In this document: positions 1 through 63,194 of the stretch, in pieces
How positions within the stretch are numbered: the stretch's first letter is position 1
Layout: each line of letters begins with the position of its first letter
Origin: Hyaloperonospora brassicae
Taxonomy: Eukaryota; Oomycota; Peronosporomycetes; Peronosporales; Peronosporaceae
NCBI GenBank assembly: GCA_947650285.1
Contig: CANTFL010000421.1
Coordinates: 62,001 to 126,000 of the forward strand
DNA length: 64,000 bases
Direction: 5' to 3'
Notes under the pieces: generated by a model
Database searches by the model: none
What the model saw: the letters and a program-made list of their open reading frames with translations, nothing else
Told to the model about the DNA's origin: nothing
Translations under genes and position numbers: made by a program

Positions 1-346
1 TTCGGGACGACGCGCATGCGCCGTCCCGCCCACAGCAGCATGGAATTGCTGCTGTCTCAACAGCTCCGTCTGTTGAGCACCGAGTTCTCTCAACTGCTCG
101 GCCTGTTGAGAGCCTTGCTGGTGAAGCAAGGCTACTTTCTCCCTCTCGAGAGCAAGTTCATGTCTGAATGAACTTGGCGATAGCGGCATGTTGTTGGTCT
201 CTGTCTAGAGACTCCAACATGGTGCTGACGACGAGTTCGCCTACGGTAGAACTCATTCGTTCTACCGCACCCCATTCGATGTCACTCAAATGGGTAAACC
301 CTTCACGCGTGGCGTGAAAGGTGTCTTCTTCATCCAACATGTTCAT
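1..346 (-). pseudogene. Element A: gag start, Ty3/Gypsy, runs off left edge
   Basis: Reading leftward from an ATG at 346, the first 62 codons (MNMLDEEDTFHATREGFTHL...) closely match the gag starts of B, C and E in this window (MNMLDE/D, then HLSDIEW and ERMSSTV). The frame stops at 158, and the rest continues in another frame as a Q/L/R-rich coiled-coil-like stretch, so a frameshift has occurred. The start lies 44 bp inside the LTR, after the primer site, as in the other copies. In a live element this protein would form the particle. The remainder lies outside the window. Confidence 0.85.
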
Positions 347-380
347 GTTGGATGTTGTGGTCCTTGGAAGGACTACAAAG

Positions 381-388
381 TGCTACCA
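381..388 (-). other. Element A primer binding site
   Basis: TGGTAGCA on the minus strand, two bases inside the LTR end. The same octamer follows the 5' LTR of B, C and E. Its complement TGCTACCA matches the 3' end of animal-type initiator-Met tRNA; which tRNA is used in this organism is an inference. Confidence 0.7.
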
Positions 389-390
389 GG

Positions 391-782
391 TGTAACGGGG
401 CACACCCTTGCGTGAACTTAACGCAAAGGTTTTGGTGCGCCCGACAGACGTACACAAGACAAGCGAGGAAGCGTAGGTAGTGTAAAAGTAGAACTGTTAT
501 ATTAACATAATTAAGTCTTTTGTTACTGTCTCTCTGTTTAACCTGATTTAATTATGTTAATCTAACTTAGTGTATGGTGACGTCTCGTCACCACTCATTG
601 CGCGCGTCCTGCGGCGATTAGTGGGTTGATATCGTCAAGATATCAACCAATGAGCAGAATCTTTGGTCGCTTCACCAATATCACCACTATCGGTGATGTT
701 GTTTAAAGAATATTCAACTTAATATTCTTAATTGCCATTATCTTCTAAATGACAATTATATGTAACGGGCTGCCCCGTTACA
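391..782 (-). repeat. 5' LTR of element A
   Basis: 392 bp, TGTAACGGGG...CCCCGTTACA, bounded by TG/CA with a 9-10 bp terminal inverted repeat. It is a close relative of the LTR at 62804-63192 (element E). It contains serial short inverted repeats, including a near-palindrome at 761-782 and the arms TTGATATC/GATATCAA. The target duplication cannot be tested because the other LTR is outside the window. Confidence 0.9.
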
Positions 783-1599
783 AGTGCAGAGGCCGAAATA
801 AATCTCATAGAATCGATATATCATATTCTGATTAGATATCGGAATTATCAAATCGAATTGACCGATCTAAAGTGCCGCAGTCCAGGGCGTCCGAGGTCCA
901 ATATGTATCGGTAGAAGAACCAGGATTAGCTACCGATCGCAAGCGAGTAAAATTCCACCTACACGACCCCATGACGTATCACCGTACTACAAGGAGTCGA
1001 AAGGGTATCGTATCTCATTTCCTCTGCCCATCCCACACGTATGGTCGCAGAGCTGTATAAGGTGCATACCGAAGAGGGGCAGGGAAGGACGTAAATTTTG
1101 CAGCTTGGGATCGCATGTCAGAGAGGTGCGTCGGCGCGCGCTGCGTAATCGTAAACACCGTCATTTGTCGGGTACATGCACAGAGTTGAGCTCAACTTAT
1201 CAGACGTACGGATATATTAGACGTCATCGCCGACGTAGCGAGAGAAGAGTACTTAATTACCCTCGGTCAACAAGCGGAGCGTACTACGAATTAACGACGC
1301 ATGAATTTCAATCGGGTATTAAATGACGAAAGCGACCGAACGGTCAGTATCATCCAGCAGATTCATGGCACCATTATCCGGAGAGAGATGGAGATAGCTA
1401 CTCGTTTTGCGTCCGAATAACAGCACATTTTTTGCGTCGCCACCATTCTACACCTCTGGGGTATATGGCTTGCGAGTTTAACGCATATGTTAATATTCCG
1501 ACGACAAGGCGCGTCTCGGCGTGAGATAACGGGCAATCGTTGCATGAATTTCAGTATAACAGGTATTCTAAGTACTTTATGCGTTGAATCGGCATAAAT
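783..1599 (+). pseudogene. LINE-1 (upstream half, decayed), interrupted by element B
   Basis: This is the segment between element A and element B. A frame at 1199-1418 reads as protein-like sequence (IRRTDILDVIADVAREEYLI, then a stop, then RVLNDESDRTVSIIQQI). The assignment rests on the junction with 9324 onward: removing B and one TAAAT copy makes RHKLSGVDGL, the conserved stretch at the start of LINE reverse transcriptases. This part would therefore be the region between endonuclease and RT. Several stops and frameshifts are present. The family assignment of the leftmost 400 bp is weak. Confidence 0.5.
1595..1599. repeat. Target site duplication TAAAT (left copy of B)
   Basis: TAAAT directly precedes the B 5' LTR and is repeated exactly at 9319-9323 directly after the B 3' LTR. 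A 5-bp duplication is typical of Ty3/Gypsy integration. Confidence 0.93.
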
Positions 1600-2042
1600 T
1601 GTAACGGGGTAGTCCGTTACATGATATTGTCATTAAGAATAAAATGACAATAAAGAATATCACGATGAATGTTCTTTCAACAATATCACAGAGCATGATG
1701 ATATTGTTGAAGATGACCGAAGGGTCTACTCATTGGTTGATATCGCGATGATATCAACGCACCAATCGCTGCTAGACGCGCGCATTGGGTGGTTAGTAGA
1801 CGGCATCATACAAATAGTTGCATTAGTATAATTAAGTCAGGACAAACAGAGATACAAGAGTTATAGGACTTAATTATATTAATAACAGTTGTACTTTTTC
1901 TACGACTAGAGTCTTTCACCTTAGTCTCCTTTCCTTCCTCTGTGTTGGTGCAACACTTAGCAGGGCACTGACTATCACTGCAGTCAGAGATAGTAAACTC
2001 CGTACTGGTTGACCAGTACGGAGTTGTCGGTGCCCCGTTACA
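1600..2042 (+). repeat. 5' LTR of element B
   Basis: 443 bp, TGTAACGGGG...CCCCGTTACA. Serial inverted repeats include ATTGTCATT/AATGACAAT (1626-1651), CAATATCA/TGATATTG (1681-1706), GTTGATATC/GATATCAAC (1736-1758), a 12-bp pair 1827-1838/1867-1878, and ACTCCGTACTGG/CCAGTACGGAGT (1997-2024). Its U3 half differs from the C and B 3' LTRs, while its last ~150 bp match the C 5' LTR closely, so it is mosaic. Confidence 0.93.
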
Positions 2043-2044
2043 CC

Positions 2045-2052
2045 TGGTAGCA
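2045..2052 (+). other. Element B primer binding site
   Basis: TGGTAGCA two bases after the LTR, as in elements A, C and E. It is complementary to an initiator-Met-like tRNA end (TGCTACCA). Confidence 0.75.
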
Positions 2053-2092
2053 CTTTATAGTCCGTCCAAGTACCACACTCGCATCGCCCAAC

Positions 2093-3207
2093 ATGAACAT
2101 GTTGGACGAAGTCGAAGGCGACAGATTTCACGGAACTCGTGAAAGCTGCTCCCATTTGAGCGATATCGAATGGAGTGCGATCGAACGAATGAGTTCGACC
2201 GTTGAAGAGGGGGCTAGTTGGGCCATGCTATCCACAAGGGATAGAGACCAGCAGCATTCCGTCATTAGCAAGTTCTTGCAACGAGAACTTGATGAGTCGC
2301 GAGCGCAGGTGACCTTGTTGCAACAACAAGATCACCAGCGGAACGAAGAACTGAGACAGTCTCAGTCCGCGCAGTCGACACGGGAGCGTCGACCGAGTCT
2401 CTAAATCTAGAGATATCCAAGTATCACGGAGCCGAGGAAGACTCTCTGTTAAGATAGTTCGTCGAAGTCGACGATGCCATCGAGGCCCGTCGCATCGGCG
2501 ATGAGCGAAGGAAAGTCGCATTCGCTCAGTCGTACTTGGCAGGGGACGTGAGGGATTGGGCCATGAATCTCAAGTTGCACGACCCGAACGTGTTCGAGTC
2601 GTTAGACGTCTTCAAGGCCCTGCTCAGTGAGACGTTTGAGCCTCCCAGGGCAGATTTCAGGACACTATCTGAGCTCCTCGGAATCAAACAGGGTAAGCGT
2701 AAGGTTCACGCTTACGCTCAGCATGTACGCTACCTTGCAAGTTGCATGGTAGTGAACCATGTTAGTGAATTCGTAAAGATCACAATATTCATTCAAGGTC
2801 TTGCAAATGGTCCTGTCAGGGACCACCTGTTTCACGGAGAGATAAAGACGCTCTCCGAAGCGATCTACGCTGCGAAGCAGGAATACTTAAGTTTAAGACA
2901 GGCTTACACTACGCTGGCTTCCTATCGTCCGTAGAGACGATCAGCGGTCGGAGGTCCAGAACCAATGGACCTATGTAATGTCGAGGGCGAGAAACCTCGT
3001 CCTGCGAATGACAAGCGATCGGTAAGATGCCATAGCCGTCATAAGCTGGAAAACTACGCATATGAATGCAGTATCCCTATCTCAGAACCCCGTGGTGCTG
3101 AGAGCAGTAACCGTCCACCAGTTAGAAGAACTGGAGGGCGAGGGTCCGATGCTGTTGCAAAGCCGCAACAGCGAGACAAACCATCAAAAATATGTTGGGG
3201 TCAGTAG
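2093..3207 (+). pseudogene. Element B gag (broken)
   Basis: Capsid-like precursor. Frame one (2093-2404) has the MNMLDEVEGDRF start and a Q-rich coiled coil (SKFLQRELDESRAQVTLLQQ). After a stop, the retrotransposon-gag core reads YLAGDVRDWAMNLKL to SLRQAYTTLASYRP, ending at 2934. A third piece (2965-3207) holds a CCHC knuckle remnant, RCHSRHKLENYAYEC, in which the second Cys is Arg and the His is Asn; element C keeps the second Cys. Internal stops at 2402 and about 2453 show it is dead. The ATG lies in an inverted repeat, CCAACATG/CATGTTGG (2088-2105). Confidence 0.88.
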
Positions 3208-3257
3208 AGGTGGAGCACCCTACTGATCCAGCATCCTCAAGATAATTTGTAAATCTC

Positions 3258-3802
3258 TTGACAAAGGTTGCTCCCGACACAAATTTACTGTGTGTCTCTG
3301 CACTTGGTGATGAAGTGTTCCTCATCACCTTGACGTTGGAAGTGACAAAAGACTTGTCTCTTCGCGCCCTAGTTGACTGTGGGGAGTCGAACAACTTTGT
3401 TCGTTGCCAGTCACAAGAGGCTGGAAGTATCAACTTTGTGGAGAGGGAGATCCCTCCAACGAGAATGACGGTGCGCCTTGCGACATGCGCATCGGTCACT
3501 GTATGAAATGTGTATTCGGAATCCACTACACGTTAAAAGATGAACAGTACGATGATGATTTCATCGTACTCGACCTGGATGACAAATTTGATGTCATCCT
3601 AGGACTACCTTGGCTCAGGAGATACGAGCCCAGGGTGAGCTGGCAGCATCGATCAGTTACGATACCTGCTACTTGTTCCTCAGATGACGATCTGAAGAAT
3701 GTCTTAAACGCCCACATTTACGTGGGTGTACCACGAGCGAGTGCGATGGACTCACTCGTGGTATGGTCGTTAGACGACTGTACAAGAACACATAGTAGAT
3801 GA
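3258..3802 (+). pseudogene. Element B aspartyl protease region (broken)
   Basis: Retropepsin-like domain that would mature the polyprotein. The catalytic motif reads LVDCGESNNFVR; element C has DCGASNNFVR, so B has lost the small residue after Gly. The frame ends at 3506 and the protein continues in another frame to 3802 (FIVLDLDDKFDVILGLPWL), the usual second half of Gypsy proteases. A 10-bp inverted repeat AGTACGATGA/TCATCGTACT sits at 3546-3570 inside the coding sequence. Confidence 0.85.
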
Positions 3803-3835
3803 TCAATATATTGTGGAAAAGCTCTCCTCAACACT

Positions 3836-5132
3836 GTGAATGTGCCTTTCCAGGAAGTAATCGGGACATTAATTGTCTTAGTTATCGATGAATCAAGCGT
3901 AGGCGCTTACACTCTTGATCTGGTTGTGCCTCCGAAACTAACTTCGGAGATAACTCAATTGCCGACGCTAGAACCGAAACGGTTCTTGCGTGATCTGCGT
4001 AGTGACAAAGTCAAGCAGATCTGTGCACTCGTCGCGGAGGACGAGTACGTTTCCGATATTCGGTCGGCAACGGTGTTTACTGTGACCGAGAAGGTTCTCA
4101 GCAGCTCATCGATGGACGAGAGCGTCATCGATGAGAAGACTCGGATTGAGAGATATAAATCTCAATCCTGGAAGTGGCTCCAGGCAAATCCGTTGTATAA
4201 GGATTTGATTGAATTCAAGGATGTACTCCCTGAATCCGTGCCAATGCGAGTTGTCTAAGGACAAAGGCACTCGACACGAGATCGAGCTCAAGCCGGGATC
4301 GAATTACTGTGTCATGAGGCAGTGGCCACTGCCTCGTGAATCGGTGCTAGAGATCGACAAGCTCTTTACCGATCGCTTAGCAGCGGGTCATGTGAGGGAA
4401 TCAACTTCCTCCTACAGCTCTCCGACCTTCTGTGTGCGAAAAGCCACAGGAGGATGGCGGATAGTGCACGCATTCAACAAATTGAATGCTGCAACGGTAC
4501 CGGCTCAGATGCCGATACCGAGAAAGGACGTAATCATAGATGGTATGTCAAACAGGACCATCTTCTCGTCCATGGATCTGATGGACGGATTCTATCAGAT
4601 CCTCATGCGTGAACGGGACATCCCGTACACAGCAGTGAGCACCCGAAGCGGTATGCTGTGGGAGTGGGTAGTGATGCCACAGGAGCTGAGCAATGCCCCT
4701 GCAACATTCAACAGATGTGTTACAAATCGATTGAGATCGGCGCGGGATTTCGCATTGACTTATTTTGACGATATTTTCGTCCATAGTCGGGCTATGGACG
4801 GAACGACGGACGTTGAGGTTCATAGAACTCATGTTCGTCAAGTCCTTCAACTTATGCGCAAGCATAAGTTGTATGCCAATCTCACGAAGTGTATATTCGC
4901 GGCAAACGAAATACCACTTCTTGGGTGCATCGTGGGTAAACACGGCGTACGACCTGATCCCGAAAAGACCAAGGCGATCACCGACTGGCCAGTGCCAGTC
5001 CATGTCAAGGGACTTCGTAAGTTCCTTGGCTTTTCAGCGTACTTACACAAGTACTCGCTCAAATACGCCGATATGACTGTTCATCTTTCTTGCTTGCTCA
5101 AGAAAGATGTGAAGTGGTCATGGAAAGCTTAG
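3836..5132 (+). pseudogene. Element B reverse transcriptase (frameshifted)
   Basis: The N-terminal linker (3836-4258) ends at a frameshift: B has one extra base relative to C near 4240. The RT proper starts about 4256 (DKGTRHEIELKPGS) with the expected blocks: SSYSSPTFCVRKATGGWRIV, MDLMDGFYQI, the catalytic YFDDIFVHSR near 4760-4790, then LGCIVGKHGVRPDPEKTKAI and the connection domain LRKFLGFSAYLHKYS. It ends at a TAG after VKWSWKA, the same stop as in C. The catalytic Asp pair is intact. In life it would copy element RNA in the particle. Confidence 0.93.
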
Positions 5133-5149
5133 TGCCAGCGTTCCTTTGA

Positions 5150-5685
5150 AGGTGTCAATCGGAGCTTGATGAAGTGCCCATCTTGGCGATTGCCGACCAG
5201 GACAGACCATTTCATGTGGACTGTGACGCCAGCAATTTTGCTATCGGCTGTGCGTTGATGCAGTATGACACAGACGGCGCGGAGCTCGTCGTCTTCTATC
5301 AATCGCGTCAGCCGCATCCAGCTGAACGCAATTACCCAGTGTATGACAAGGAAGTCCTGTCATGAAGTACGCACTGGCTAAGTTTCGCGTCTATCTCTTG
5401 GGAGATAGACCGTTCATCGTATATACGGACCATGCGTCACTACGCACGGCCGTAAACAGTCCACACCTCTTGCAACGAATGGCGAGGTGGCTGTCTTTCT
5501 TCGCGGAGTACAACTTCTCCGTGGAATGCAAACCAGGACGACTTGACGTCGTCGCTGATGCGTTATTATGTTGGCCCGATTTCGAGCCGACAACACGCGC
5601 CAACAGTGAGGCCTTGCTCACTGTTGCAGCACTGTCAGTCAGCGTGAAGTCATCGCCTTTACTAGACGACGTGCGGAAGGCATAA
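5150..5685 (+). pseudogene. Element B RNase H
   Basis: Gypsy RNase H: RPFHVDCDASNFAIGCALMQ (first catalytic Asp), VFYQSRQPHPAERNYPVYDKEVLS, then a TGA at 5363-5365, then ALAKFRVYLLGDRPFIVYTDHASL and ADALLCWPDFE (the usual ADALSR altered). The same stop is in C. Hairpin GTCTATCTC/GAGATAGAC lies at 5389-5410 within the domain. Confidence 0.9.
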
Positions 5686-5699
5686 GCAGTGGATATTAT

Positions 5700-6600
5700 T
5701 CTCCTTCGTTTGATGGGTCACCTTGCAAATCCATCCCGGAAATCCTTGTCGGATTTGCCGCCTCTATAACGTTCCTCGTTGGATCGGTATACGACTCTCA
5801 ATGGCCTGCTGTACTACACAGCAGTTGCCGAGGATACACCTCGTGTCGTCGTTACCGATCATGATGATTTGCGTTTACGCATCATGTTCGAATGTCACGA
5901 TGCGGTCTCTGGCGGGCATCGTGGTAGGGAAAAGACCTACCTTACGGTAAGTCGTAAATTTTGCTGGCTCCGCCAGTATTTGTTCGTACGCAAGTACATT
6001 CGTTCTTGCAAGGTCTGTCAACGGGTGGAGCCTAGTCCTTCATTCCCAGCACCATTACAACCTATGCCGGTCCCGACAGAGTGTTGAAAGTCCGTTTCCA
6101 TATACTTTTCCTTCGGGTTTCCTGAATGCACTCACAGGAATAATGCTATTCTTGTGTTTGTGGAAGGTTTCAGTAAGAAGATGCATCGTGCTGCGGTTCC
6201 CAGGTCGATCACTGCACATAGATGTGTGCTTTTCTTCATCGACACAGTATTTCGACTCCACAGATTATCCCGTGAACTCGTATCCAACCGTGATCCTCGG
6301 TTCACGGCGGAGTTTTGGCAATCCGTGTTCCGTTCACTCGGAACACGACTAAAGATGTCCACATCTGACCATCCCGAAACAGATGGTTAGACGGAATGTG
6401 CAAACCGTTTCCTCGAAGAGATCCTTTGAGGATATGTCCACTCCTTTTCGAGTTGAAGTGATTTCTTGCCGATGGTGGAATTTGCCATCAACAATAAGGT
6501 GCATGCGTCAACAACGCATATACAGTTCTATATGAATGGCTTACGCCACCCACGTATTCCCGCCCTTTTATAGAGTGAATCTGGGTTAGAGGGGGAGGGA
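5700..6600 (+). pseudogene. Element B integrase (zinc-binding and core)
   Basis: Zinc finger HDAVSGGHRG...CKVCQ (HHCC) at about 5900-6020, then the core with VSNRDPRFTAEFW and STSDHPETDG. The second catalytic Asp of VSDRDPRF is Asn here but Asp in element C. A TAG follows PETDG in both copies, and further stops break LEEIL and SFSSW-like stretches before VEFAINN. It would have inserted cDNA. Confidence 0.9.
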
Positions 6601-6639
6601 ATCGCTCGAGCAAAAACCGTTTGGCTTTTACTCATCATG

Positions 6640-7261
6640 TATCATCGCACATGCCGATACCTTCGATGTCGATGTCGATCAGGTCGACATCGAAGAAGTT
6701 GATCTTAGCAGTAGCAATGACGCTGCTGCTACTTCAGACAATGATGACGATGCTGGGATATTCAGCATCGTCAACGATTATGCCAGCGAGGAAGAAGAAA
6801 ACCTCGATGAAGAAAAGAAGAATTTCTTAGCAGTGCGCACGAAGCGCACTAAAAGACAAAACAACGAGTCAGCAGAGAACTTTCTGCTGAATCGAGAGTC
6901 GGTAGTCCGTTTCGTTCAGGACTCCATCGCAAATGCGGTGGACCGCCAGAAACGAAACGCAGACAGGAATGGAAGAGCAAATTTTCTTCATTTAAGGTTA
7001 ACGACCTAATACTAATGTCCACGGTAAACTTACCTGGACATGCAGTCACTAGTGTCGGCAGTAGTAAACTACTGCCGAAATACATTGGGCCATTTCGGGT
7101 GTTGCACCGCAAAGGCAACGCATACACGTTTTGAGTTGCCTCGCAGGATGCGCACGCGTCCTACGTTTTATGTTGGTCGTCTCCGTCTGTGCTATCAGTA
7201 CGAGGCCTCATCGAGAGCGGAGATGACCATCACGTTCAAGAATCCCAACCGATTCTTGTGA
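6640..7261 (+). pseudogene. Element B integrase C-terminal region (acidic segment and GPY-like module)
   Basis: An acidic run (DVDQVDIEEVDLSSSNDAAA, EEEENLDEEKK) precedes VRTKRTKRQNNESAENFLLN and FVQDSIANAVDRQKRNADRN, then SSKLLPKYIGPFRVLHRKGN, the GPF/Y module typical of chromovirus integrases, and RRMRTRPTFYVGRL. At least two frameshifts are needed to read it through. Inverted repeats CTTCGATGTCGA/TCGACATCGAAG (6661-6695) and CGATGCTG/CAGCATCG fall in it. Confidence 0.82.
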
Positions 7262-8766
7262 TCACGGACCCAACACTCAAGTTGGTTCTTCAGCAACGCA
7301 GTCTCGCGACGATCCGCCTCTTGCACGTCCCGCAAAAGGCGCGTCTCGCGTTCATTATCAAGCTGAGCGAATGCGAAATCCAATCGGTCTTTCTCCCGAT
7401 CGGTACGAAGACGTCGTACGGTCGCCGGCAATTCGCGCCGACGATCGTATTCGTGATCGATGTCCTCCCTCAACTCTTTTAGGTAACGTTCATGGTTATA
7501 CAAAGTCTCATGCAGTCCCGGTAGCTGAGACGGACCTTTTCTATCCACCACCACCGAAAGCACTGGTGGATTCTCACGGTGGTCGACGCTTTCACGTGGG
7601 GCGTATCTTGAGCCACCGCGTAAAGAACGGGAAGCGTACAAGTTACCTTGTCGGCTGGCGTGGGTACCCACCTTCGTATGACTGCTAGAATACTCCGTCG
7701 TATCTGAAGGATTATGTTGAGGGTCTCGTCCACCAGTACGACGAGGCTCATCCGATAGGTACGAGGGCCCATCGGTAAGCACGCGCCTTGGCGCTTGTAG
7801 AATAATTGCAAGTTTGCAATCGCGTCCCGCATCTCAGCCGAGATGTGTGCCCTTCCCCAGGGCGAACTTAGGAAATTAACATCCCTATGTGCACGTTGCG
7901 AGTTGTCAGCACAACTCGCACAAGGATCACCCAAGTGAGGCAAGGGATGTCTGCCTCACTCGACAAACGATGCAGCCGATACCTTGCACCTGTTGGAGTT
8001 CGTTTCTCAAACTTGATGCGTACTGCTTCAAGTTTCCGGAGCCATCCTTCTCGTCAGAAATTCTTAAAATTTTGGACGAACGCGTTCCATGCAGCCAGAA
8101 GATAAGCTTTGTCACGCTTTTGGCTAACGTTGTACCATCGATGCATGAGGAAAGCATCGACATAGAAGTCTTCTTCAGCGCAAAAGTTCTTCGCGCTGGA
8201 GATCTAGCCATGGATCTCGCTCGCATCGAATAATGTAACTCTATGGTGTTGACTTGTTTCGTGAGACAAGCTATTGATGAGGTGTTCAGGCAAACGCCAC
8301 GGATTCAGCTCATCACGATTCGACGTGGTACCTTTGCCGGTACCACGGTTATCAGTATGACGACGGCTCGTGCCTTCGTCGAATCACTCGTGCGAAGGCG
8401 CACGAGCTGATCGCGGTGATGAGTAATCATACTCATCACCATATTCATCATCACTGCCAAACAGACTGTGACGCATGTCGCGAGTTCGTACGTTCGGCAG
8501 GTCTATGGTGAGCGAGGCACCGCAGGTGAGTGTGATGCCTCTAAAGGATTTTGCGAGTCAGACACATCTGACTCGCCAGCGTAGCTGACCCCTATTTCGA
8601 GGTTACTGTGTGCATGTGGTGCGATACCACATGCGCCTGCAGGAAAAATTGCTGTAGGCTGAGAACGAGCAGCAGACGACGATTCGTCTGCCGCAGAGGC
8701 GGGCGCAGCAAAAGGCTGTGTCGTCTTTGGGTCCCGCCGCATAGACATGTTAACTATGCGAGGCAA
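7195..8766 (-). pseudogene. Element B antisense reading frame (aORF), coiled-coil protein, broken
   Basis: On the strand opposite to gag-pol, from just inside the 3' LTR back to the chromodomain. First a Ser/Ala/Pro-rich piece (from about 8748 to 8503); then 8500-7880, a single frame of 207 codons with only three stops (SLFGSDDEYGDEYDY, NPWRLPEHLINSL, EEDFYVDAFLMHRWYN, KRDKAYLLAAWNAFVQNF); then 7782-7195, a 195-codon open frame ending in a charged coiled coil (LYNHERYLKELREDIDHEYD, LDNERETRLLRDVQEADRRE). Two frameshifts separate the parts. I recognise no domain. Two facts temper it: the sense strand is also partly open, and B and C are not independent. D and F have a frame in the same place and orientation. 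Confidence 0.5.
7262..7745 (+). pseudogene. Element B linker and chromodomain
   Basis: A Pro/Arg/Ser-rich linker, then the chromodomain: FYPPPPKALVDSHGGRRFHV, GRILSHRVKNGKRTSYLVGW, RGYPPSYD. The Trp codon expected next is a stop (7686-7688), after which the end of the fold is still readable (GLVHQYDEAHP). The same stop occurs in C. Chromodomains of this class are thought to steer integration to marked chromatin. The opposite strand here is also open (see the antisense entry). Confidence 0.85.
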
Positions 8767-8865
8767 AGTCAGAATGAATGAATCTGATTAACAAGTACTC
8801 CCGGTCCCGTTGGCATCCAACCGGTGGCCACAAAAGTTTCGATAGTCACACGGTGACTATTAGTT

Positions 8866-8878
8866 GAGGAAGGGGTGC
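8866..8878 (+). other. Element B polypurine tract
   Basis: GAGGAAGGGGTGC directly abutting the 3' LTR start at 8879; the expected plus-strand primer. Element C has GAGGGAGGGGTGC at the same place. Confidence 0.88.
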
Positions 8879-9318
8879 TGTTACGGGGTAGCCCGTTACA
8901 TGATATTGTCATTAAGGATAAAATGACAATAAATAATATTACGATGAATATTCTTTCAACAATATCACAGAGCATGATGATATTGTTAGATGACCGGAGG
9001 GTCTATACATTGGTTTATGTTGTGATGATACCAACCCACCAATTGCTGCTAGACGCGCGCAATGGGTGGTGAGTAGACGTCATCATACAAATAGTTACAT
9101 TAGTATAATTAAGTCAGGACAGACAGAGATACGAGAGTTATAGGACTTAACTATATTAATAACAGTTGTACTTTTTCTACGACTAGAGTCTTTCACCTTA
9201 GTCTCCTTTCCTTCCTCTGTGTTGGTGCTACACCTAGCTGGGCATGGACTATCACCACAGTCAGTTATAGTAAACTCCGTACTGGTTGACCAGTACGTAG
9301 GTGTCGGTGCCCGTTACA
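8879..9318 (+). repeat. 3' LTR of element B
   Basis: 440 bp, starting TGTTACGGGG (one change from TGTAACGGGG) and ending CCCGTTACA, followed by TAAAT. It is much closer to the C LTR sequences than to B's own 5' LTR over the U3 half. Confidence 0.93.
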
Positions 9319-9323: not shown

Positions 9324-11050
9324 TATCAGGTGTGGATGGCCTTTCAAAAATCCTTTACAGATAAATAATCCGAGATGTTTCCTACGATGGTTGCTAAAGG
9401 CAACGAGCTGCTTCGAGGGGGAAAGCCGACCCAATCGTTTTTTGATGGATTTATCATCCCGCTGCGATAGCAGGTGGAATCTATAGACGCGGCGGATTAC
9501 CGACCAATTGCCCTTCTTCAATTATGCTATATAATCTTTGCAAAAGAAATCGCTTCACGTGTGCAAAATGTTTGGGGGAGAGATCAATTGGTGCTTCGCA
9601 ACAAGGCTTAATTTATGAACGTCCGATGATCAATACTCTTATGATGATGATGGCGTTACTGGATAAAGCATCAGCGGATCCGGCTGTGACGGCACTGAAA
9701 AGCCGATCAATTCTCGTACTTAATTCTCGAAAGGACTATGATACAATTTCTTGAGATTCTATAATTTTAAGAGCTACAGCGGTTTCGCTTCTCGAAAGCC
9801 TTTGTGGCTATGATTCGCACTATTAACGATGGCACTACAGCTCATTTTGTCGTTAATAGTGAGCTTTCAAAGCCTCAAGAAGTACTTTCTGCCATCCGGC
9901 AAGGATGACCATTGGCTGCGTTGCAATTCCGTAAAGCGGCTAAAGTGCTTTTGCTGGCTGGATGAGCCGATTCGCAAGTTCTTGGAATCAGCCCACCTCC
10001 AGGTGGAAGGTTACGTCACAAGTTCTCAGCTTTCGTGGACGACTAGATGGTTTTAATGGAGGAGGCGAGCCAATTATTGCTGGTGCTTAAAACCTAGTGC
10101 GGCGTTTTGGTCAATTATCTGGATTACAGATTCAACCAGTGAGAGCAAATCGATTTTTCTAAGTTGGCCGTCGTCAAGGGGGTACTTTCTTTGGCATCTT
10201 GGTCCTTCGGGACGACGAGACGAAGCGATACTTGGGTCAAAAACGCGGTGGGTGCGGGACGTCTTACTAATGCGAACTGGGCGGCAATTATTCGTGATGT
10301 TCAGCGGCTACTAGCAACTTCCAGTCAGCTTATGACCCCTGAATAGTATCGCGTCTTGATCCTCTGCGTCATCATGCTGCCCGCGGTGTTGTTGACAGCG
10401 GCGGTATTCAACCTCCCGTCATGGGCAGAGCAGCAGCTTCGTAATTTTTAAAGCTAATTTTTGTGGCGCCATTCAACTAGCACTGAAGCGTATCGCCACA
10501 AGATGAATCTGTCCCTATTGCACACGATCAAGCAGGCTGGAGGAGTTGGATTGTGATCTATACTGTTTGAGTGTCAAGACTCAGAGGGTCGAACACCCCA
10601 AACTATGGCTCACGCAACGGAAGGACGTGAATATTTTCGGCCTAGCAGGCGCGGGCATTTAGTAACGCGTCGGTCGCGGCGGAAACTAAGGTATCTCTCC
10701 TGTCTTCGTCCGACCACAATAGTCTGCCATTGCTCGCCACGCATTTACAAGCTATTCATTAACCCTGCTCAGTTCCTCGCTTGCTCCATCACTCCTGGAA
10801 CCTGATGATCGTCAGCAACGATACTCAGTAACGCTGCTTCGTTAGACTTCGACATCCCACGACGGGTATACAAATTGATGAATGGACGCTGACACTCCAG
10901 ATTCAGTTTTTGATGCGCTCTCTCAATGACCCCGGGGGAGAAAGCCTCCGGGCCGACATATACATGGTCTGACATCTCCTGGATTGTGGACCACAAGGAG
11001 GAGAAGTTGCGCAAATTTGATAAACTTCATCCGTGTGCACTTGTGACCCT
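9324..11050 (+). pseudogene. LINE-1 reverse transcriptase and downstream domain (decayed)
   Basis: Continuation of the LINE split by element B. Readable blocks on the plus strand: SGVDGLSKI at the junction, EMFPTMVAKGNELLRGGK, IDAADYRPIALLQLCYIIFA near 9483-9540, MINTLMMMMALLDKASADPA, a motif-A remnant LNSRKDYDTIS (Asp replaced by Asn), IRQG-stop-PLA near 9890, and an intact FVDD (10032-10043) followed at once by TAG. Past 10150 come WVKNAVGAGRLTNANWAAII and, near 10830-11030, FDIPRRVYKLMNGR and EKASGPTYTWSDISWIVDHK. This is a non-LTR retrotransposon of the same general type as the LINE at 55640-62803. Confidence 0.78.
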
Positions 11051-13908: not shown

Positions 13909-14199
13909 AACTGTTATTAATATATTTAAGTCCTATCAATCTTATTTTCTCTGTTTGTCCTGACCTTAATTATACTAATGTAACTATTTGTATGATGACG
14001 TCTACTCACCACCCATTGCGTGCGTCTAGCAGCAATTGGTGGGTTGGTATCATCACAACATAAACCAATGTATAGACCCTCCGGTCATCTAACAATATCA
14101 TCATGCTCTGTGATATTGTTGAAAGAATATTCATCGTAATATTCTTTATTGTCATTTTATCCTTAATGACAATATCATGTAACGGGCTACCCCGTAACA

Positions 14200-14212
14200 G
14201 CACCCCTCCCTC
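14200..14212 (-). other. Element C polypurine tract
   Basis: GAGGGAGGGGTGC on the minus strand, directly before the 3' LTR start at 14199; equivalent to 8866-8878 in B. Confidence 0.85.
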
Positions 14213-14308
14213 AACTAATAGTCACCGTGTGACTATCGAAACTTTTGTGGCCACCGGTTGGATGCCAACGGGACCGGGAGTACTTGTTAATCAGATTCAT
14301 TCATTCTG

Positions 14309-15882
14309 ACTTTGCCTCGCATAGTTAACATGTCTATGCGGCGGGATCCAAAGACGACACAGCCTTTTGCTGCGCCCGCCTCTGCGGCAGACGAATCTCG
14401 TCTGCTGCTCGTTCTCAGCCTGCAGCAATTTTTCCTGCAGGCGCATGTGGTATCGCACCACATGCACACAGAAACCTCGAAATAGGGGTCAGCTACGCTG
14501 GCGAGTCAGATGTGTCTGACTCGCAAAATCCTTTAGAGGCATCACACTCACCTGCGGTGCCTCGCTCACCATAGACCTGCCGAACGTACGAACTCGCGAC
14601 ATGCGTCACAGTCTGTTTGGCAGTGATGATGAATATGGTGATGAGTATGATTACTCATCACCACGATCAGCTCGTGCGCCTTCGCACGAGTGATTCGACG
14701 AAGGCACGAGCCGTCGTCATACTGATAACCGTGGTACCGGCAAAGGTACCACGTCGAATCGTGATGAGCTGAATCCGTGGCGTTTGCCTGAACACCTCAT
14801 CAATAGCTTGTCTCACGAAACAAGTCAACACCATAGAGTTACATTATTCGATGCGAGCGAGATCCATGGCTAGATCTCCAGCGCGAAGAACTTTTGCGCT
14901 GAAGAAGACTTCTATGTCGATGCTTTCCTCATGCATCGATGGTACAACGTTAGCCAAAAGCGTGACAAAGCTTATCTTCTGGCTGCATGGAACGCGTTCG
15001 TCCAAAATTTTAAGAATTTCTGACGAGAAGGATGGCTCCGGAAACTTGAAGCAGTACGCATCAAGTTTGAGAAACGAACTCCAACAGGTGCAAGGTATCG
15101 GCTGCATCGTTTGTCGAGTGAGGCAGACATCCCTTGCCTCACTTGGGTGATCCTTGTGCGAGTTGTGCTGACAACTCGCAACGTGCACATAGGGATGTTA
15201 ATTTCCTAAGTTCGCCCTGGGGAAGGGCACACATCTCGGCTGAGATGCGGGACGCGATTGCAAACTTGCAATTATTCTACAAGCGCCAAGGCGCGTGCTT
15301 ACCGATGGGCCCTCGTACCTATCGGATGAGCCTCGTCGTACTGGTGGACGAGACCCTCAACATAATCCTTCAGATACGACGGAGTATTCTAGCAGTCATA
15401 CGAAGGTGGGTACCCACGCCAGCCGACAAGGTAACTTGTACGCTTCCCGTTCTTTACGCGGTGGCTCAAGATACGCCCCACGTGAAAGCGTCGACCACCG
15501 TGAGAATCCACCAGTGCTTTCGGTGGTGGTGGATAGAAAAGGTCCGTCTCAGCTACCGGGACTGCATGAGACTTTGTATAACCATGAACGTTACCTAAAA
15601 GAGTTGAGGGAGGACATCGATCACGAATACGATCGTCGGCGCGAATTGCCGGCGACCGTACGACGTCTTCGTACCGATCGGGAGAAAGACCGATTGGATT
15701 TCGCATTCGCTCAGCTTGATAATGAACGCGAGACGCGCCTTTTGCGGGACGTGCAAGAGGCGGATCGTCGCGAGACTGCGTTGCTGAAGAACCAACTTGA
15801 GTGTTGGGTCCGTGATCACAAGAATCGGTTGGGATTCTTGAACGTGATGGTCATCTCCGCTCTCGATGAGGCCTCGTACTGA
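14309..15882 (+). pseudogene. Element C antisense reading frame (aORF)
   Basis: Counterpart of the B antisense frame, on the plus strand because C is inverted. The 195-codon distal frame (15295-15882) encodes the same protein as in B, and the middle part (about 14580-15200) keeps the same three stops. The Ser/Ala-rich first part has an extra frame change relative to B. Because B and C are near-identical, this is not independent support for coding. Confidence 0.45.
15332..15815 (-). pseudogene. Element C linker and chromodomain
   Basis: Same as the B chromodomain: RRFHVGRILSHRVKNGKRTS, YLVGWRGYPPSYDC, then the shared stop (15389-15391) where Trp is expected. Mapped by 23077-x from B. Confidence 0.85.
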
Positions 15883-16440
15883 TAGCACAGACGGAGACGA
15901 CCAACATAAAACGTAGGACGCGTGCGCATCCTGCGAGGCAACTCAAAACGTGTATGCGTTGCCTTTGCGGTGCAACACCCGAAATGGCCCAATGTATTTC
16001 GGCAGTAGTTTACTACTGCCGACACTAGTGACTGCATGTCCAGGTAAGTTTACCGTGGACATTAGTATTAGGTCGTTAACCTTAAATGAAGAAAATTTGC
16101 TCTTCCATTCCTGTCTGCGTTTCGTTTCTGGCGGTCCACCGCATTTGCGATGGAGTCCTGAACGAAACGGACTACCGACTCTCGATTCAGCAGAAAGTTC
16201 TCTGCTGACTCGTTGTTTTGTCTTTTAGTGCGCTTCGTGCGCACTGCTAAGAAATTCTTCTTTTCTTCATCGAGGTTTTCTTCTTCCTCGCTGGCATAAT
16301 CGTTGACGATGCTGAATATCCCAGCATCGTCATCATTGTCTGAAGTAGCAGCAGCGTCATTGCTACTGCTAAGATCAACTTCTTCGATGTCGACCTGATC
16401 GACATCGACATCGAAGGTATCGGCATGTGCGATGATACAT
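15816..16440 (-). pseudogene. Element C integrase C-terminal region
   Basis: Acidic stretch, the KRQNNESAENFLLN and KYIGPFRVLHRKGN blocks, and RRMRTRPTFYVGRL, essentially identical to B and equally frameshifted. Confidence 0.8.
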
Positions 16441-16476
16441 GATGAGTAAAAGCCAAACGGTTTTTGCTCGAGCGAT

Positions 16477-17377
16477 TCCCTCCCCCTCTAACCCAGATTC
16501 ACTCTATAAAAGGGCGGGAATACGTGGGTGGCGTAAGCCATTCATATAGAACTGTATATGCGTTGTTGACGCATGCACCTTATTGTTGATGGCAAATTCC
16601 ACCATCGGCAAGAAATCACTTCAACTCGAAAAGGAGTGGACATATCCTCAAAGGATCTCTTCGAGGAAACGGTTTGCACATTCCGTCTAACCATCTGTTT
16701 CGGGATGGTCAGATGTGGACATCTTTAGTCGTGTTCCGAGTGAACGGAACACGGATTGCCAAAACTCCGCCGTGAACCGAGGATCACGGTCGGATACGAG
16801 TTCACGGGGTAATCTGTGGAGTCGAAACACTGTGTCGATGAAGAAAAGCACACATCTATGTGCAGTGATCGACCTGGGAACCGCAGCACGATGCATCTTC
16901 TTACTGAAACCTTCCACAAACACAAGAATAGCATTATTCCTGTGAGTGTATTCAGGAAACCCGAAGGAAAAGTATATGGAAACGGACTTTCAACACTCTG
17001 TCGGGACCGGCATAGGTTGTAATGGTGCTGGGAATGAAGGACTAGGCTTCACCTGTTGACAGACCTCGCAAGAACGAATGTACTTGCGTACGAACAAATA
17101 CTGGCGGAGCCAGCAAAATTTACGACTTACCGTAAGGTAGGTCTTTTCCCTACCACGATGCCCGCCAGAGACCGCATCGTGACATTCGAACATGATGCGT
17201 AAACGCAAATCATCATGATCGGTAACGACGACACGAGGTGTATCCTCGGCAACTGCTGTGTAGTACAGCAGGCCATTGAGAGTCGTATACCGATCCAACG
17301 AGGAACGTTATAGAGGCGGCAAATCCGACAAGGATTTCCGGGATGGATTTGCAAGGTGACCCATCAAACGAAGGAGA
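16477..17377 (-). pseudogene. Element C integrase zinc-binding and core
   Basis: HHCC finger (HDAVSGGHRG, CEVCQQ) and core VSDRDPRFTAEFW, which retains the catalytic Asp lost in B, then STSDHPETDG and the shared TAG (16687-16689). Downstream stops are as in B. C is therefore slightly less damaged than B in this domain. Confidence 0.9.
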
Positions 17378-17391
17378 ATAATATCCACTGC

Positions 17392-17927
17392 TTATGCCTT
17401 CCGCACGTCGTCTAGTAAAGGCGATGACTTCACGCTGACTGACAGTGCTGCAACAGTGAGCAAGGCCTCACTGTTGGCGCGTGTTGTCGGCTCGAAATCG
17501 GGCCAACATAATAACGCATCAGCGACGACGTCAAGTCGTCCTGGTTTGCATTCCACGGAGAAGTTGTACTCCGCGAAGAAAGACAGCCACCTCGCCATTC
17601 GTTGCAAGAGGTGTGGACTGTTTACGGCCGTGCGTAGTGACGCATGGTCCGTATATACGATGAACGGTCTATCTCCCAAGAGATAGACGCGAAACTTAGC
17701 CAGTGCGTACTTCATGACAGGACTTCCTTGTCATACACTGGGTAATTGCGTTCAGCTGGATGCGGCTGACGCGATTGATAGAAGACGACGAGCTCCGCGC
17801 CGTCTGTGTCATACTGCATCAACGCACAGCCGATAGCAAAATTGCTGGCGTCACAGTCCACATGAAATGGTCTGTCCTGGTCGGCAATCGCCAAGATGGG
17901 CACTTCATCAAGCTCCGATTGATACCT
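17392..17927 (-). pseudogene. Element C RNase H
   Basis: RPFHVDCDASNFAIGCALMQ, PAERNYPVYDKEVLS with the shared stop (17712-17714), then GDRPFIVYTDHASL and ADALLCWPDFE. Same as B. Confidence 0.9.
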
Positions 17928-17944
17928 TCAAAGGAACGCTGGCA

Positions 17945-19117
17945 CTAAGCTTTCCATGACCACTTCACATCTTTCTTGAGCAAGCAAGAAAGATGAACAG
18001 TCATATCGGCGTATTTGAGCGAGTACTTGTGTAAGTACGCTGAAAAGCCAAGGAACTTACGAAGTCCCTTGACATGGACTGGCACTGGCCAGTCGGTGAT
18101 CGCCTTGGTCTTTTCGGGATCAGGTCGTACGCCGTGTTTACCCACGATGCACCCAAGAAGTGGTATTTCGTTTGCCGCGAATATACACTTCGTGAGATTG
18201 GCATACAACTTATGCTTGCGCATAAGTTGAAGGACTTGACGAACATGAGTTCTATGAACCTCAACGTCCGTCGTTCCGTCCATAGCCCGACTATGGACGA
18301 AAACATCGTCAAAATAAGTCAATGCAAAATCCCGCGCCGATCTCAATCGATTTGTAACACATCTGTTGAATGTTGCAGGGGCATTGCTCAGCTCCTGTGG
18401 CATCACTACCCACTCCCACAGCATACCGCTTCGGGTGCTCACTGCTGTGTACGGGATGTCCCGTTCACGCATGAGGATCTGATAGAATCCGTCCATCAGA
18501 TCCATGGACGAGAAGATGGTCCTGTTTGACATACCATCTATGATTACGTCCTTTCTCGGTATCGGCATCTGAGCCGGTACCGTTGCAGCATTCAATTTGT
18601 TGAATGCGTGCACTATCCGCCATCCTCCTGTGGCTTTTCGCACACAGAAGGTCGGAGAGCTGTAGGAGGAAGTTGATTCCCTCACATGACCCGCTGCTAA
18701 GCGATCGGTAAAGAGCTTGTCGATCTCTAGCACCGATTCACGAGGCAGTGGCCACTGCCTCATGACACAGTAATTCGATCCCGGCTTGAGCTCGATCTCG
18801 TGTCGAGTGCCTTTGTCCTTAGGCAACTCGCAAGGTACCGATTCAGGGAACAAATCCTTGAATTCGATCAAATCCTTATACAAAGGATTTGCCTGAATTG
18901 ACTCCCAGGATTGAGACGTGTATCGCTCAATCCAAGTCTTCTCATCGATGACGCTATTGTCCATCGATGAACTGCTGAGAACCCTCTCGGTCACAGTAAA
19001 CACCGTTACCGATCGAATATCGGTAAAGTACTCGTCCTCCGCGACGAGTGCACAGATCTGCTTGACTTTGCCGCTACGCAGATCACGCAAGAACCATTTC
19101 GGTTCTAGCGTCGGCAA
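17945..19117 (-). pseudogene. Element C reverse transcriptase, long open frame
   Basis: 390 codons without a stop, joining the pre-RT linker to RT because C lacks the one-base insertion seen in B (PESVPCELPKDKGTRHEIE reads through). The catalytic motif is YFDDVFVHSR. It ends at the shared TAG after VKWSWKA (17945-17947). The linker (about 18855-19117) differs from B at roughly one residue in seven, while the RT from DKGTRHEIE onward differs at about one residue in 290, a sharp change in similarity. This is the longest open frame in the window. Confidence 0.93.
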
Positions 19118-19241
19118 TCGAGTTATCTTCGAAGTTAGCTTTGAAGGTTATATAAGCATGTACGCGCCTACTCTTGATCCGTCATTAACCAAGACGTTCA
19201 ATGTCTCGATTACTTCCTGGGAAGTCACATCCACAGGGTGA

Positions 19242-20376
19242 TGGAAGATTTCTTCTCAATGAAGTGTTATAAAGTGATCATGAGATTAAAGCGCGGCATT
19301 GGGACGCGGGATGGAATCAGACGACTGAGTGACAGATAACGGATGTTATAGTTATTCGATTTTATCTACCGAACGGTCGAGAAGGATTGTAGCCGAGAAT
19401 CGATTATCGACCGATCGCAACCCGCGATCAAGGGTTTGGATCACCAAATTACAAGTACCGGATCACTCAAGAGGTTAACATCATCCGGAGCACTGGATTG
19501 CTAACGAAAGTGGAAAATAGGTAAATATGGAAGCAAGCTGGAGACGTGGAACGCAAATATCATCAAACATGCGAGGTCTCACAAGTGACGGCGATTCGAC
19601 GGTGGATGCCCGATCAGAGGATAGAAAGATTGACCGCGATCTATCCTGGGTGTGTACTGATTGATTTTGTGGACACATAATTATCGCGGATCACATACCG
19701 CGATTCACGGAGGGTATGCTGTGGACCACATGATGCAAGAGGTGAATGAGATGGACAGGCGATATGCAACAGAGATCTAGCGAAGAGATAAGCATAGTCA
19801 TAGGATTTGGATTTGGCTCGTTGACATTGAACAGAGTTGGCTTTACAACTAAAGACACGCGTCGACTTCTTCCGACAGTAAATTCGACCTCCCGTTTAAT
19901 AAAGAGCCACACGCGTCCTTACAAACTTCTATTTTGAATTGTTTGTCCAGGCGGAACATTAGCTCTCACCTACTTTCAGCTGCGACATGAAAGAGGGGAA
20001 CGTAACGGCTCTTATATAAGATCGCGAGACGGCTCAAGTGGTCTGAAGGCTCGCAAATTAAAAAATGCGTTTGGATACAGACAACTCTGGGAGAACGCCC
20101 AAGTGTTCTTGCGATCGAGTGAAGAGTTTCCACTCGATTCACCCCACGTTAGTCAAAGTGAAGAATTTCCACCCAATCAACACCTAATCCTAAAACGGTC
20201 AAGTTCAGCTTCAACTCAATCCACCAAGACGAGCGCAATCCGTCCCATCGATGGGTACAAAAGGTGAGCAAATCGACATAGAGCACGTAATTGGGGTACC
20301 CTCTCCGTTAGTCGGTCTTCTGTGCGCCAGTGGAGATTTCGGATCACAAGGAATTTGTGATCACCACTCCACCACA
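19242..20376 (+). repeat. Solo LTR of the D family, inserted in element C
   Basis: 1,135 bp, starting TGGAAGATTTC and ending CACCACTCCACCACA, matching the ends of the D LTRs (TGGAGAAG...CCGCCACA) in the opposite orientation. The internal run near 19690-19830 (TGTGGACCACATGATGCAAG, GGCGATATGCAAC) is the reverse complement of the D LTR. It is considerably diverged. It interrupts C between protease and RT where B is continuous. The flanks (GGTGA and GCAGT) do not give a clean 5-bp duplication. Confidence 0.85.
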
Positions 20377-20930
20377 GCAGTGATTTTTTACACTGTGGTC
20401 TTGTACAGTCGTGCTAACGACTGTAAAACAAGTGAGACCATCGCACTTACTCGCAGTACACCAACACAATTGTAAGCGTTCCAAGACGTTCATCAAATGG
20501 CCATCTGGTGAACAAGTAGATTGTATCGAAACTGATCGATGGTGCCAGCTCACCCTTGGCTCGTATCTCCTGATCCAAGGTAGTCCTAGGATGACATCAA
20601 ATTTGTCATCCAGGTCGAGTACGATGAAATCATCATCGTACTGTTCATCTTTTAACGTGTAGTGGATTCCGAATACACATTTCATACAGTGACCGATGCA
20701 CATGTCGCAAGGCGCACCGTCATTCTCGTTGGAGGGACCTCCCTCTCCACGAAGTTGATACTTCCAGCCTCTTGTGACTGGCAACGAACAAAGTTGTTCG
20801 ACGCCCCACAGTCAACTAGGGCGCGAAGTGACAAGTCTTTTGTCACTTCCAACGTCAAGGTGATGAGGAACACTTCATCACCAAGTGCAGAGACACACAG
20901 TAAATTTGTGTCGGGAGCAACCTTTGTCAA
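20377..20930 (-). pseudogene. Element C protease region
   Basis: LVDCGASNNFVR (intact catalytic motif, versus DCGES in B) and, in another frame, FIVLDLDDKFDVILGLPWIR. The downstream end is truncated by the solo LTR junction. Confidence 0.85.
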
Positions 20931-20980
20931 GAGATTTGCAAATTATCTTGAGGATGCTGGATCAGTAGGGTGCTCCACCT

Positions 20981-22094
20981 CTACTGACCCCAACATATTT
21001 TTGATGGTTTGTCTCGCTGTTGCGGCTTTGCAACAGCATCGGACCCTCGCCCTCCAGTTCTTCTAACTGGTGGACGGTTACTGCTCTCAGCACCACGGGG
21101 TTCTGAGATAGGGATACTGCATTCATATGCGTAGTTTTCCAGCTTATGACAGCTATGGCATCTTACCGATCGCTTGTCATTCGCAGGACGAGGTTTCTCG
21201 CCCTCGACATTACATAGGTCCATTGGTTCTGGACCTCCGACCGCTGATCGTCTCTACGGACGATAGGAAGCCAGCGTAGTGTAAGCCTGTCTTAAACTTA
21301 AGTATTCCTGCTTCGCAGCGTAGATCGCTTCGGAGAGCGTCTTTATCTCTCCGTGAAACAGGTGGTCCCTGACAGGACCATTTGCAAGACCTTGAATGAA
21401 TATTGTGATCTTTACAAATTCACTAACATGGTTCACTACCATGCAACTTGCAAGGTAGCGTACATGCTGAGCGTAAGCGTGAACCTTACGCTTACCCTGT
21501 TTGATTCCGAGGAGCTCAGATAGTGTCCTGAACTCTGCCCTGGGAGGCTCAAACGTCTCACTGAGCAGGGCCTTGAAGACGTCTAACGACTCGAACACGT
21601 TCGGGTCGTGCAACTTGAGATTCATGGCCCAATTCCTCACGTCCCCTGCCAAGTACGACTGAGCGAATGCGACTTTCCTTCGCTCATCGCCGATGCGACG
21701 GGCCTCGATGGCATCGTCGACTTCGACGAACTATCTTAACAGAGAGTCTTCCTCGGCTCCGTGATACTTGGATATCTCTAGATTTAGAGACTCGGTCGAC
21801 GCTCCCGTGTCGACTGCGCGGACTGGGACTGTCTCAGTTCTTCGTTCCGCTGGTGATCTTGTTGTTCAACAAGGTCACCTGCGCTCGCGACTCATCAAGT
21901 TCTCGTTGCAAGAACTTGCTAATGACGGAATGCTGCTGGTCTCTATCCCTTGTGGATAGCATGGCCCAACTAGCCCCCTCTTCAACGGTCGAACTCATTC
22001 GTTCGATCGCACTCCATTCGATATCGCTCAAATGGGAGCAGCTTTCACGAGTTCCGTGAAATCTGTCGCCTTCGACTTCGTCCAACATGTTCAT
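20981..22094 (-). pseudogene. Element C gag
   Basis: Start MNMLDEVEGDRFHGTRESCS at 22094, Q-rich coiled coil, gag core LAGDVRNWAMNLKLHDPNVF (21254-21652), and a knuckle RCHSCHKLENYAYEC in which the His is Asn but both central Cys remain. It has a frameshift near 21850 relative to B's reading and stops as in B. Confidence 0.88.
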
Positions 22095-22134
22095 GTTGGG
22101 CGATGCGAGTGTGGCACTTGGACGGACTATAAAG

Positions 22135-22142
22135 TGCTACCA
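22135..22142 (-). other. Element C primer binding site
   Basis: TGGTAGCA on the minus strand, two bases inside the 5' LTR. Confidence 0.75.
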
Positions 22143-22144
22143 GG

Positions 22145-22585
22145 TGTAACGGGGCACCGACAACTCCGTACTGGTCTCCCAGTACGGAGTTTACTATCTC
22201 TGACTGCAGTGATAGTCAGTGCCCTGCTAAGTGTTGCCCCAACACAGAGGAAGGAAAGGAGACTAAGGTGAAAGACTCTAGTCGTAGAAAAAGTACAACT
22301 GTTATTAATATAATTAAGTCCTATAACTCTCGTATCTCTGTTTGTCATGACTTAATTATACTGATGTAACTATTTGTATGATGACGTCTACTCACCACCC
22401 ATTGCGCGCGTCTAGCAGCAATTGGCGGGTTGATCTCATCACAACATAAACCAATGTATAGACCCTCCGGTCACCTAACGATATCATCATGCTCTGTGAT
22501 ATTGTTGAAAGAATATTCATCGTAATATTATTTATTGTCATTTTATCCTTAATGACAATATCATGTAACGGGCTACCGCGACACA
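22145..22585 (-). repeat. 5' LTR of element C
   Basis: 441 bp. The inner end is TGTAACGGGG; the outer end is degraded (CTACCGCGACACA where CTACCCCGTTACA is expected). The part next to the primer site matches the B 5' LTR; the distal part matches the B 3' LTR. Hairpin arms such as CTCCGTACTGG/CCAGTACGGAG persist. Confidence 0.92.
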
Positions 22586-30207: not shown

Positions 30208-30275
30208 ATAATTGTCGTCTGCACCGGTGATCGACATACATCGTTGGTCGACTCTGCACTTCTAACATTAATAGA

Positions 30276-32620: not shown

Positions 32621-32759
32621 GAATACATTTATATCATTTTCTTTTTTGTCTATCGACATAACTTTACTCATTTGCCTTGTAATATATACCCCCTGCGATC
32701 GGGCTTCAATACCCTGGATGGACACGCGCCACATCTCTCCCGGTACGATTTTTGCAACC

Positions 32760-40250: not shown

Positions 40251-40257
40251 GCACCAT

Positions 40258-46250: not shown

Positions 46251-46287
46251 CCAAATTGATTAAAACGACTTAATATTGCAGCGTTCA

Positions 46288-63192: not shown

Positions 63193-63194
63193 CC

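Follow-up and report, generated by a model that had tools for sequence, protein, structure and literature searches.

Why should a retrotransposon carry dozens of short perfect inverted repeats, inside its genes as well as outside them? This question is raised by element B, which occupies positions 1600-9318 (plus strand) of a 64-kb window, the whole stretch of DNA analysed here (64,000 nucleotides (nt) of contig CANTFL010000421.1 of Hyaloperonospora brassicae). By its sequence, B is a decayed member of a family of oomycete Ty3/gypsy chromoviruses. A scan of the window for inverted repeats with perfect arms of at least 7 bp and loops of at most 12 nt finds most of them in B, in a second element called C and in pieces at either end of the window. 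B holds 67, 46, 28 and 18 repeats with arms of at least 7, 8, 9 and 10 bp, for means of 6.4, 2.25, 0.6 and 0.25 in 20 dinucleotide shuffles; 30 further shuffles gave a mean of 1.5 and a maximum of 5 for arms of at least 8 bp. The dense perfect repeats reported in the initial annotation are thus real and were even understated: all 13 that it listed are present, among 46 with arms of at least 8 bp (about 2 in shuffles), and two of them had been given arms that were too short (14 bp at 1996-2025 and 10 bp at 4848-4871).

It should be stressed that B is not a special case. C and the pieces at the window ends are alike, and B turns out to be a decayed copy in a large hairpin-rich family. A protein search gave 5,545 first-look candidates, among which 129 places of the B family, 85-100% identical to B, were scored; many have frames of at least 1,339 codons. 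In 3.9-kb stretches around the reverse transcriptase (RT), B and C retain 16 and 15 arms of at least 8 bp, against 40-52 in the other family loci (n=28). B is therefore a degraded family member, the intact members carrying more than twice as many hairpins. The near-whole young relative L061 (7,867 bp covered, 3' long terminal repeat (LTR) incomplete) has 109 arms of at least 8 bp, none of them in bins beyond 8,000, and 2,002 of its 7,867 bases, about one quarter, lie in such perfect stems. Its gag, pol, third open reading frame (ORF3), 3' untranslated region (UTR) and repeated LTR part contain 9.7-22.1 hairpins per kb, and the 131 bp between the repeated LTR part and ORF1 contain one. Only 18 of the 99 L061 hairpins that are fully aligned in B are still perfect there (such comparisons leave out any hairpin whose counterpart is gapped, which removed 10 of 109 here); this loss fits drift in a dead copy, as judged from the alignment.

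Neither chance nor base composition nor codon bias accounts for this density, which is not reproduced by dinucleotide shuffles of B or by synonymous shuffles of L061. In 100 synonymous shuffles, the 54 arms of at least 8 bp of L061 pol compare with a mean of 1.07 and a maximum of 5, the 16 of gag with a mean of 0.55 and the 12 of ORF3 with 0.70, so that codon choice does appear bent to pairing, as initially proposed. The comparison of folding energies with codon-preserving shuffles, done on L061 pol, points the same way: -61.6 kcal/mol per 150 nt versus -41.5 (sd (standard deviation) 0.89, 20 shuffles). The corresponding z values on the sense strand are -18.6 for L061 pol, -9.8 for L064, -9.0 for L063 and -3.1 for L067. 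In L061 pol, 47 of the 54 hairpins lie in the two codon registers that pair third positions with first or second ones and so allow silent changes to make pairs; the same registers hold 12/16 hairpins in gag and 9/12 in ORF3, near the two thirds expected. Two simple rules of construction found no support. That arms lengthen until the protein stops them is not borne out, 21 of the 54 first outside mismatches being silently pairable where 17.8 are expected, and no even tiling is seen, the spacing of hairpins being as irregular as chance (coefficient of variation 1.09, longest gap 252 nt). An Rfam search gave no match.

The inverted repeats have a characteristic shape. In L061 the excess peaks at loops of 4-6 nt (63 with arms of at least 7 bp versus about 1.1) and comes near chance beyond 60 nt, and the repeats are therefore hairpins. 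Direct repeats of at least 8 bp within 60 bp occur in L061 as often as chance predicts (4 versus 4.8), unlike in L064 and L067, which have 13 and 14 of them versus about 2.5. Moreover, stem length has a ceiling that is specific to each family: about 10 bp in the B family, 8-9 bp in L064 and L067 and 5 bp in the L063 group. With loops of 3-8 nt, the numbers of arms of at least 8, 9, 10 and 11 bp are 79, 55, 29 and 4 in L061; those of at least 7, 8, 9 and 10 bp are 29, 19, 7 and 1 in L064 (59% pol identity). For arms of at least 5, 6 and 7 bp, L063 (56%) has 81, 17 and 2, and its 94%-identical relative L091 has 52, 6 and 0. The 3' UTR of L061 keeps the ceiling of its family (12, 7, 1 and 0 arms of at least 8, 9, 10 and 11 bp), which is therefore not imposed by the protein. 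A few repeats with loops outside 3-8 nt exceed the ceiling, with arms of up to 14 bp. Loops differ even within one copy; inspection by eye, with no motif search made, showed no motif that they share.

Among the families sampled, in which gypsy families are at most about 28% or at least about 56% identical to B, the hairpin array is limited to one clade, delimited by pairwise sequence identities. Loci of other RVT_1 families have 0-3 arms of at least 8 bp in 30 cases out of 30. These loci (L001-L030, all scanned) were taken as LINE-type (long interspersed nuclear element) since none matched the pol of B at 1e-5; eight of them were given synonymous shuffles and five were folded on both strands. 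One, L030, has 2 arms of at least 9 bp, for a shuffle maximum of 1, and folding z values of -2.1 and -2.8; the non-clade locus L065 gives -2.2 and -3.1. In the distant gypsy family of L066 (26%), hairpins and folding are at shuffle level. Within the window, the LINE-type stretches 9354-10626 and 56330-59991 contain no arm of at least 8 bp, and their short hairpins are at shuffle level. The initial annotation had set both these LINEs and element D (29122-41071) apart from B, which holds for the LINEs and, as far as loops of 3-8 nt are concerned, for D (63 versus 55.8 in shuffles). However, D is not wholly clean of palindromes, since loops of 0-12 nt give 11 arms of at least 8 bp versus 1.8 (maximum 6). 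Eight of these 11 lie in the bin 38,001-40,000, none of them with a loop of 3-8 nt, with the three longest overlapping one another at 39,030-39,051. Elsewhere, 2 viral_contigs stretches and 10 genome_contigs stretches fit a pattern, and none was confirmed as a relative.

Within families, pairing appears to be under selection, judging from how copies diverge. All comparisons went from a source to a target, took only stems that are perfect in the source and were made in both directions for most pairs. Among 26 near-identical copies, private changes are alike in stems (37/972) and at other sites (88/2640). Between less similar copies, stems were shown by alignment to diverge two- to five-fold slower than their surroundings, at third codon positions as well as in noncoding DNA. 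For instance, third positions compared with the 91%-identical subfamily L033 have changed in 28/298 cases in stems and 205/879 outside, and second positions in 10/278 and 40/899; against L035, third positions give 15/333 and 95/936. In the same way, third positions of L063 and L091, two loci with long open frames, differ at 18/148 stem sites and 179/685 other sites. Downstream of the last ORF, the comparison with the L033 element gives 21/432 for stems, 30/138 for loops and 142/805 for the rest, and that with the L035 element 6/450, 11/136 and 56/778. Noncoding stems thus diverge 3.6-5.4 times slower than the rest, and reverse comparisons agree. Furthermore, double changes that restore pairing are often more numerous than those that do not, where a ratio of about 1:2 is expected by chance on our estimate: 29:19 for L061-B, 4:1 for the 3' region of L061-L033, 5:3 for L055-L033 (5:0 in reverse) and 4:1 and 2:1 for L063-L091.

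What these stems are kept for, or made by, depends first on the kind of pairing. A genome-wide ordered structure selected for sense-RNA stability, whether for protection, compaction or translation control, would agree with the folding of L061 pol 18.6 sd beyond synonymous shuffles and with the G+C-rich stems of L064 (0.665 versus 0.532; L063, L091 and the L061 3' UTR are mildly so). The sister pair L064-L067 also leans to G-T over A-C single changes (24:13 and 12:8), and on the sense strand the loops of L061 contain much A and little C, a bias that the other five sets show more weakly or not at all. However, pairing in L061 resumes equally well past G-T (8/35) and A-C mismatches (7/33; others 2/109), despite costs on sense RNA of 1.31 kcal/mol for G-U and 4.93 for A-C. 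Single changes in intact young copies, scored where hairpins of L031, L033, L035 and L037 are aligned to L055 or L061, comprise 13 G-T, 17 A-C and 14 others, these copies being related and not all independent, and the G-T:A-C ratios for L063-L091 are 4:5 and 5:5. B-family stems are not G+C-rich overall (0.521 versus 0.516). In five loci (L061, L033, L064, L067 and L063) the sense and antisense strands exceed shuffles in folding by about the same margin, and both are depleted in G-U. Thus, neither L061, nor L063/L091, nor the strand comparison of the five loci revealed a structure specific to sense RNA with accepted G-U. As G-U is tolerated no better than A-C and both strands fold alike, plain sense-RNA stability seems a poor fit and must be regarded as distinctly improbable, although the L064-L067 pair leans towards it. 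Of the selection for RNA structure first suggested, the selection is supported, by slow stems and by compensation within families, but the feature is not plainly one of RNA, given strand symmetry and the lack of G-U preference in the B and 5-bp families. A role at the DNA level, through hairpins in single-stranded complementary DNA or cruciforms in the integrated copy, would accommodate strand symmetry and the equal intolerance of G-T and A-C, but it leaves the family-specific stem lengths unaccounted for and is very improbable.

Template switching, which is known to form and repair hairpins (PMC8794818), is treated as one source of change and is the leading rival explanation. The RTs of the clade could snap back on the nascent strand, copy a reverse-complement patch of set length and return to the template; patches harmful to protein function would be purged, and the rest would accumulate and be re-copied. 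Such an origin would fit Watson-Crick pairing without G-U preference, strand symmetry, equal stem ceilings in coding and noncoding DNA and the lack of G+C enrichment in B-family stems. It would also fit the clear inversion of two loops: a 3-nt one in L038 and an 8-nt one between L064 and a relative from the L064 group. However, template switching would entail neutral stem divergence in noncoding DNA, and the slow noncoding stems described above are not what unbiased re-copying gives. Changes are also fairly even on both arms (32:19, 15:14, 9:9, 78:84 and 31:37), inversions in total do not exceed a plain-reversal control (8 centres versus 11), and none of the four hairpin sites present in at most 6 copies among 27 young RT loci arose from a multi-base patch. 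Template switching, put forward as a possible cause from the outset, keeps the two inversions on its side but does not on its own explain the slow noncoding stems, and we consider a purely mutational origin unlikely. Evasion of RNA interference (RNAi) supposes that self-folded sense and antisense RNAs hide targets and disable guides, which needs Watson-Crick pairing on both strands. Both strands do fold equally well, the B family is large, and Gypsy elements of Phytophthora infestans are matched along their length by 21-nt and 25/26-nt small RNAs of either orientation (PMC3522703). Yet hairpins are spaced no more evenly than by chance, stems of 5 bp would conceal little and the ceilings stay unexplained; RNAi evasion accordingly seems improbable.

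The reading preferred here, quite possible if short of probable, is that the hairpins are selected as dispersed cis-acting signals, which would be defined by shape and length, not by sequence or energy, and read by proteins of the element itself. The readers would be its nucleic-acid-binding proteins, most likely Gag/nucleocapsid and possibly RT, acting during packaging, condensing or copying of the genome. It is more tentatively proposed, and on the doubtful side, that the set stem length of each family could be a sequence-independent structural code, a "molecular ruler", which would run through all genes and the LTRs largely by synonymous choice, be read by the family's own machinery and be able to diverge as a mark of self-recognition.

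Several observations weigh against the reading as selected signals. Among the 26 near-identical copies, changes common to at least three copies are depleted in stems only slightly (15/972 versus 68/2640; Fisher p 0.07 versus private changes). Double changes between the decayed B and C are uncompensated (1:5 and 1:3). The loops and sequence of the hairpins are not conserved, loops varying like their surroundings (30/138 versus 142/805), unlike in known packaging signals. Between sister families, stems do not diverge more slowly (0.330 versus 0.323 from L064 to L067, 0.438 versus 0.401 from L061 pol to L064, and likewise from L061 to L067), and double changes restore pairing no more often than chance predicts (26:54 and 28:56). 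Each family therefore keeps an array and not a fixed set of hairpins. The alignments indicate that most hairpins turn over between sister families; those kept in place with an altered sequence are 7/33 for L064-L067 (0.8 expected), 4/45 for L061 pol-L064 (2.0) and 3/42 for L061 pol-L067 (1.2). The decayed L070, whose first kilobase is badly aligned, was kept in the L064-L067 comparison set, and nothing rests on it.

In B itself, the reading frames are broken, and its parts were recognized piecewise on the plus strand. The 5' LTR (1600-2033, right end approximate) forms a direct repeat with 8879-9287 at 91-94% identity, within the 3' LTR (8879-9312) delimited by repeat matches, and has hairpins at 1600-1621, 1625-1652, 1676-1711, 1736-1758 and 1996-2025. 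It is followed by a gag segment at 2458-2931 (Pfam Retrotrans_gag 6.6e-10, Ty3_capsid 1.8e-09), by an RT segment at 4209-5129 (RVT_1 4.6e-22) and, at 7227-7685, by a segment with the terminal chromodomain (Chromo 1.8e-06). Inside the RT segment the scan places hairpins at 4316-4335, 4470-4489, 4574-4602, 4778-4800, 4848-4871 and 5082-5109. The proteins nearest to this RT, in the best 120 of 1,225 matches, are from Peronospora matthiolae (81% identity), Pythium oligandrum and Phytophthora species. Taken together, Pfam matches in the L061 ORFs and B segments give gag, the order protease-RT-RNase H-integrase and a C-terminal chromodomain, with LTRs on either side. In L061 the SH3-chromodomain part is a separate frame of 411 codons (1384-2616, minus strand) that overlaps the end of pol.

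Elsewhere in the window, C (13965-22585, minus strand) is a second decayed copy, inverted relative to B with matches over several kb and 49 arms of at least 8 bp. B and C are near-identical over 4.4 kb, yet the LTRs of B differ by 6-9%; this near-identity and the inverted layout suggest duplication or conversion after decay. B-family gag matches (tblastn) at 1-382 and 63201-63998 mark the pieces at the window ends, 1-1500 (minus strand; 11 arms of at least 8 bp versus 0.2) and 62001-64000 (plus strand; 11 versus 0.4), and B-family stretches in them (2-688 and 62896-63580) are also mutually inverted. The LTR-like repeats of D are near-identical (99% over 300 nt), and 19610-20145, within C, is about 80% similar to parts of them at 29.2-29.8 and 40.5-41.1 kb, which makes it a likely nested insertion. 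Finally, a decayed element of the L063 family lies at 46001-52100 (plus strand, outer limits approximate; L063 protein matches of 47-78%) and belongs to the 5-bp hairpin class. With loops of 3-8 nt it has 66 stems of exactly 5 bp versus 20.3 in shuffles and 18 of at least 6 bp versus 7.0; the 18 of 84 stems beyond 5 bp are about what chance lengthening of 5-bp stems would give. Its arms of at least 8 bp number 2 versus 1.3.

Either pairing itself is what selection reads throughout a mobile genome, or palindromes of set length are written by a reverse transcriptase, and to our knowledge neither is known. Each family holds its ceiling of stem length while its reading frames stay open. Families with stems of 5, 8-9 and 10 bp in one genome provide a natural test set for the nucleocapsid, the RT and the silencing machinery, and intact copies beside decayed ones separate maintenance from decay. 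No precedent was found for the array; as for hairpin arrays in oomycete Ty3/gypsy chromoviruses, no report was found in a literature coverage without most subscription papers and bioRxiv preprints.

In their protein content, these elements resemble the known Ty3/gypsy chromoviruses of oomycetes, with a zinc-knuckle gag, protease-RT-RNase H-integrase and SH3-chromo. Some RNA viruses have a genome-scale ordered RNA structure, with pervasive folding beyond shuffles through coding regions. The elements of this clade also fold beyond shuffles through their coding regions, but their structure consists of perfect local hairpins, is strand-symmetric, has a stem ceiling and, in two families, gives G-U no preference. 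Perfect hairpins are also produced and repaired by template-switch mutation at inverted repeats, which can invert loops (PMC8794818), whereas only two clear loop inversions and slow noncoding stems are seen here. The dispersed packaging signals of RNA viruses are many stem-loops spread along the genome that share a recognition motif for the coat protein (PMC6281560); many stem-loops along the genome are also what these elements carry, with loops that vary like the sequence around them.

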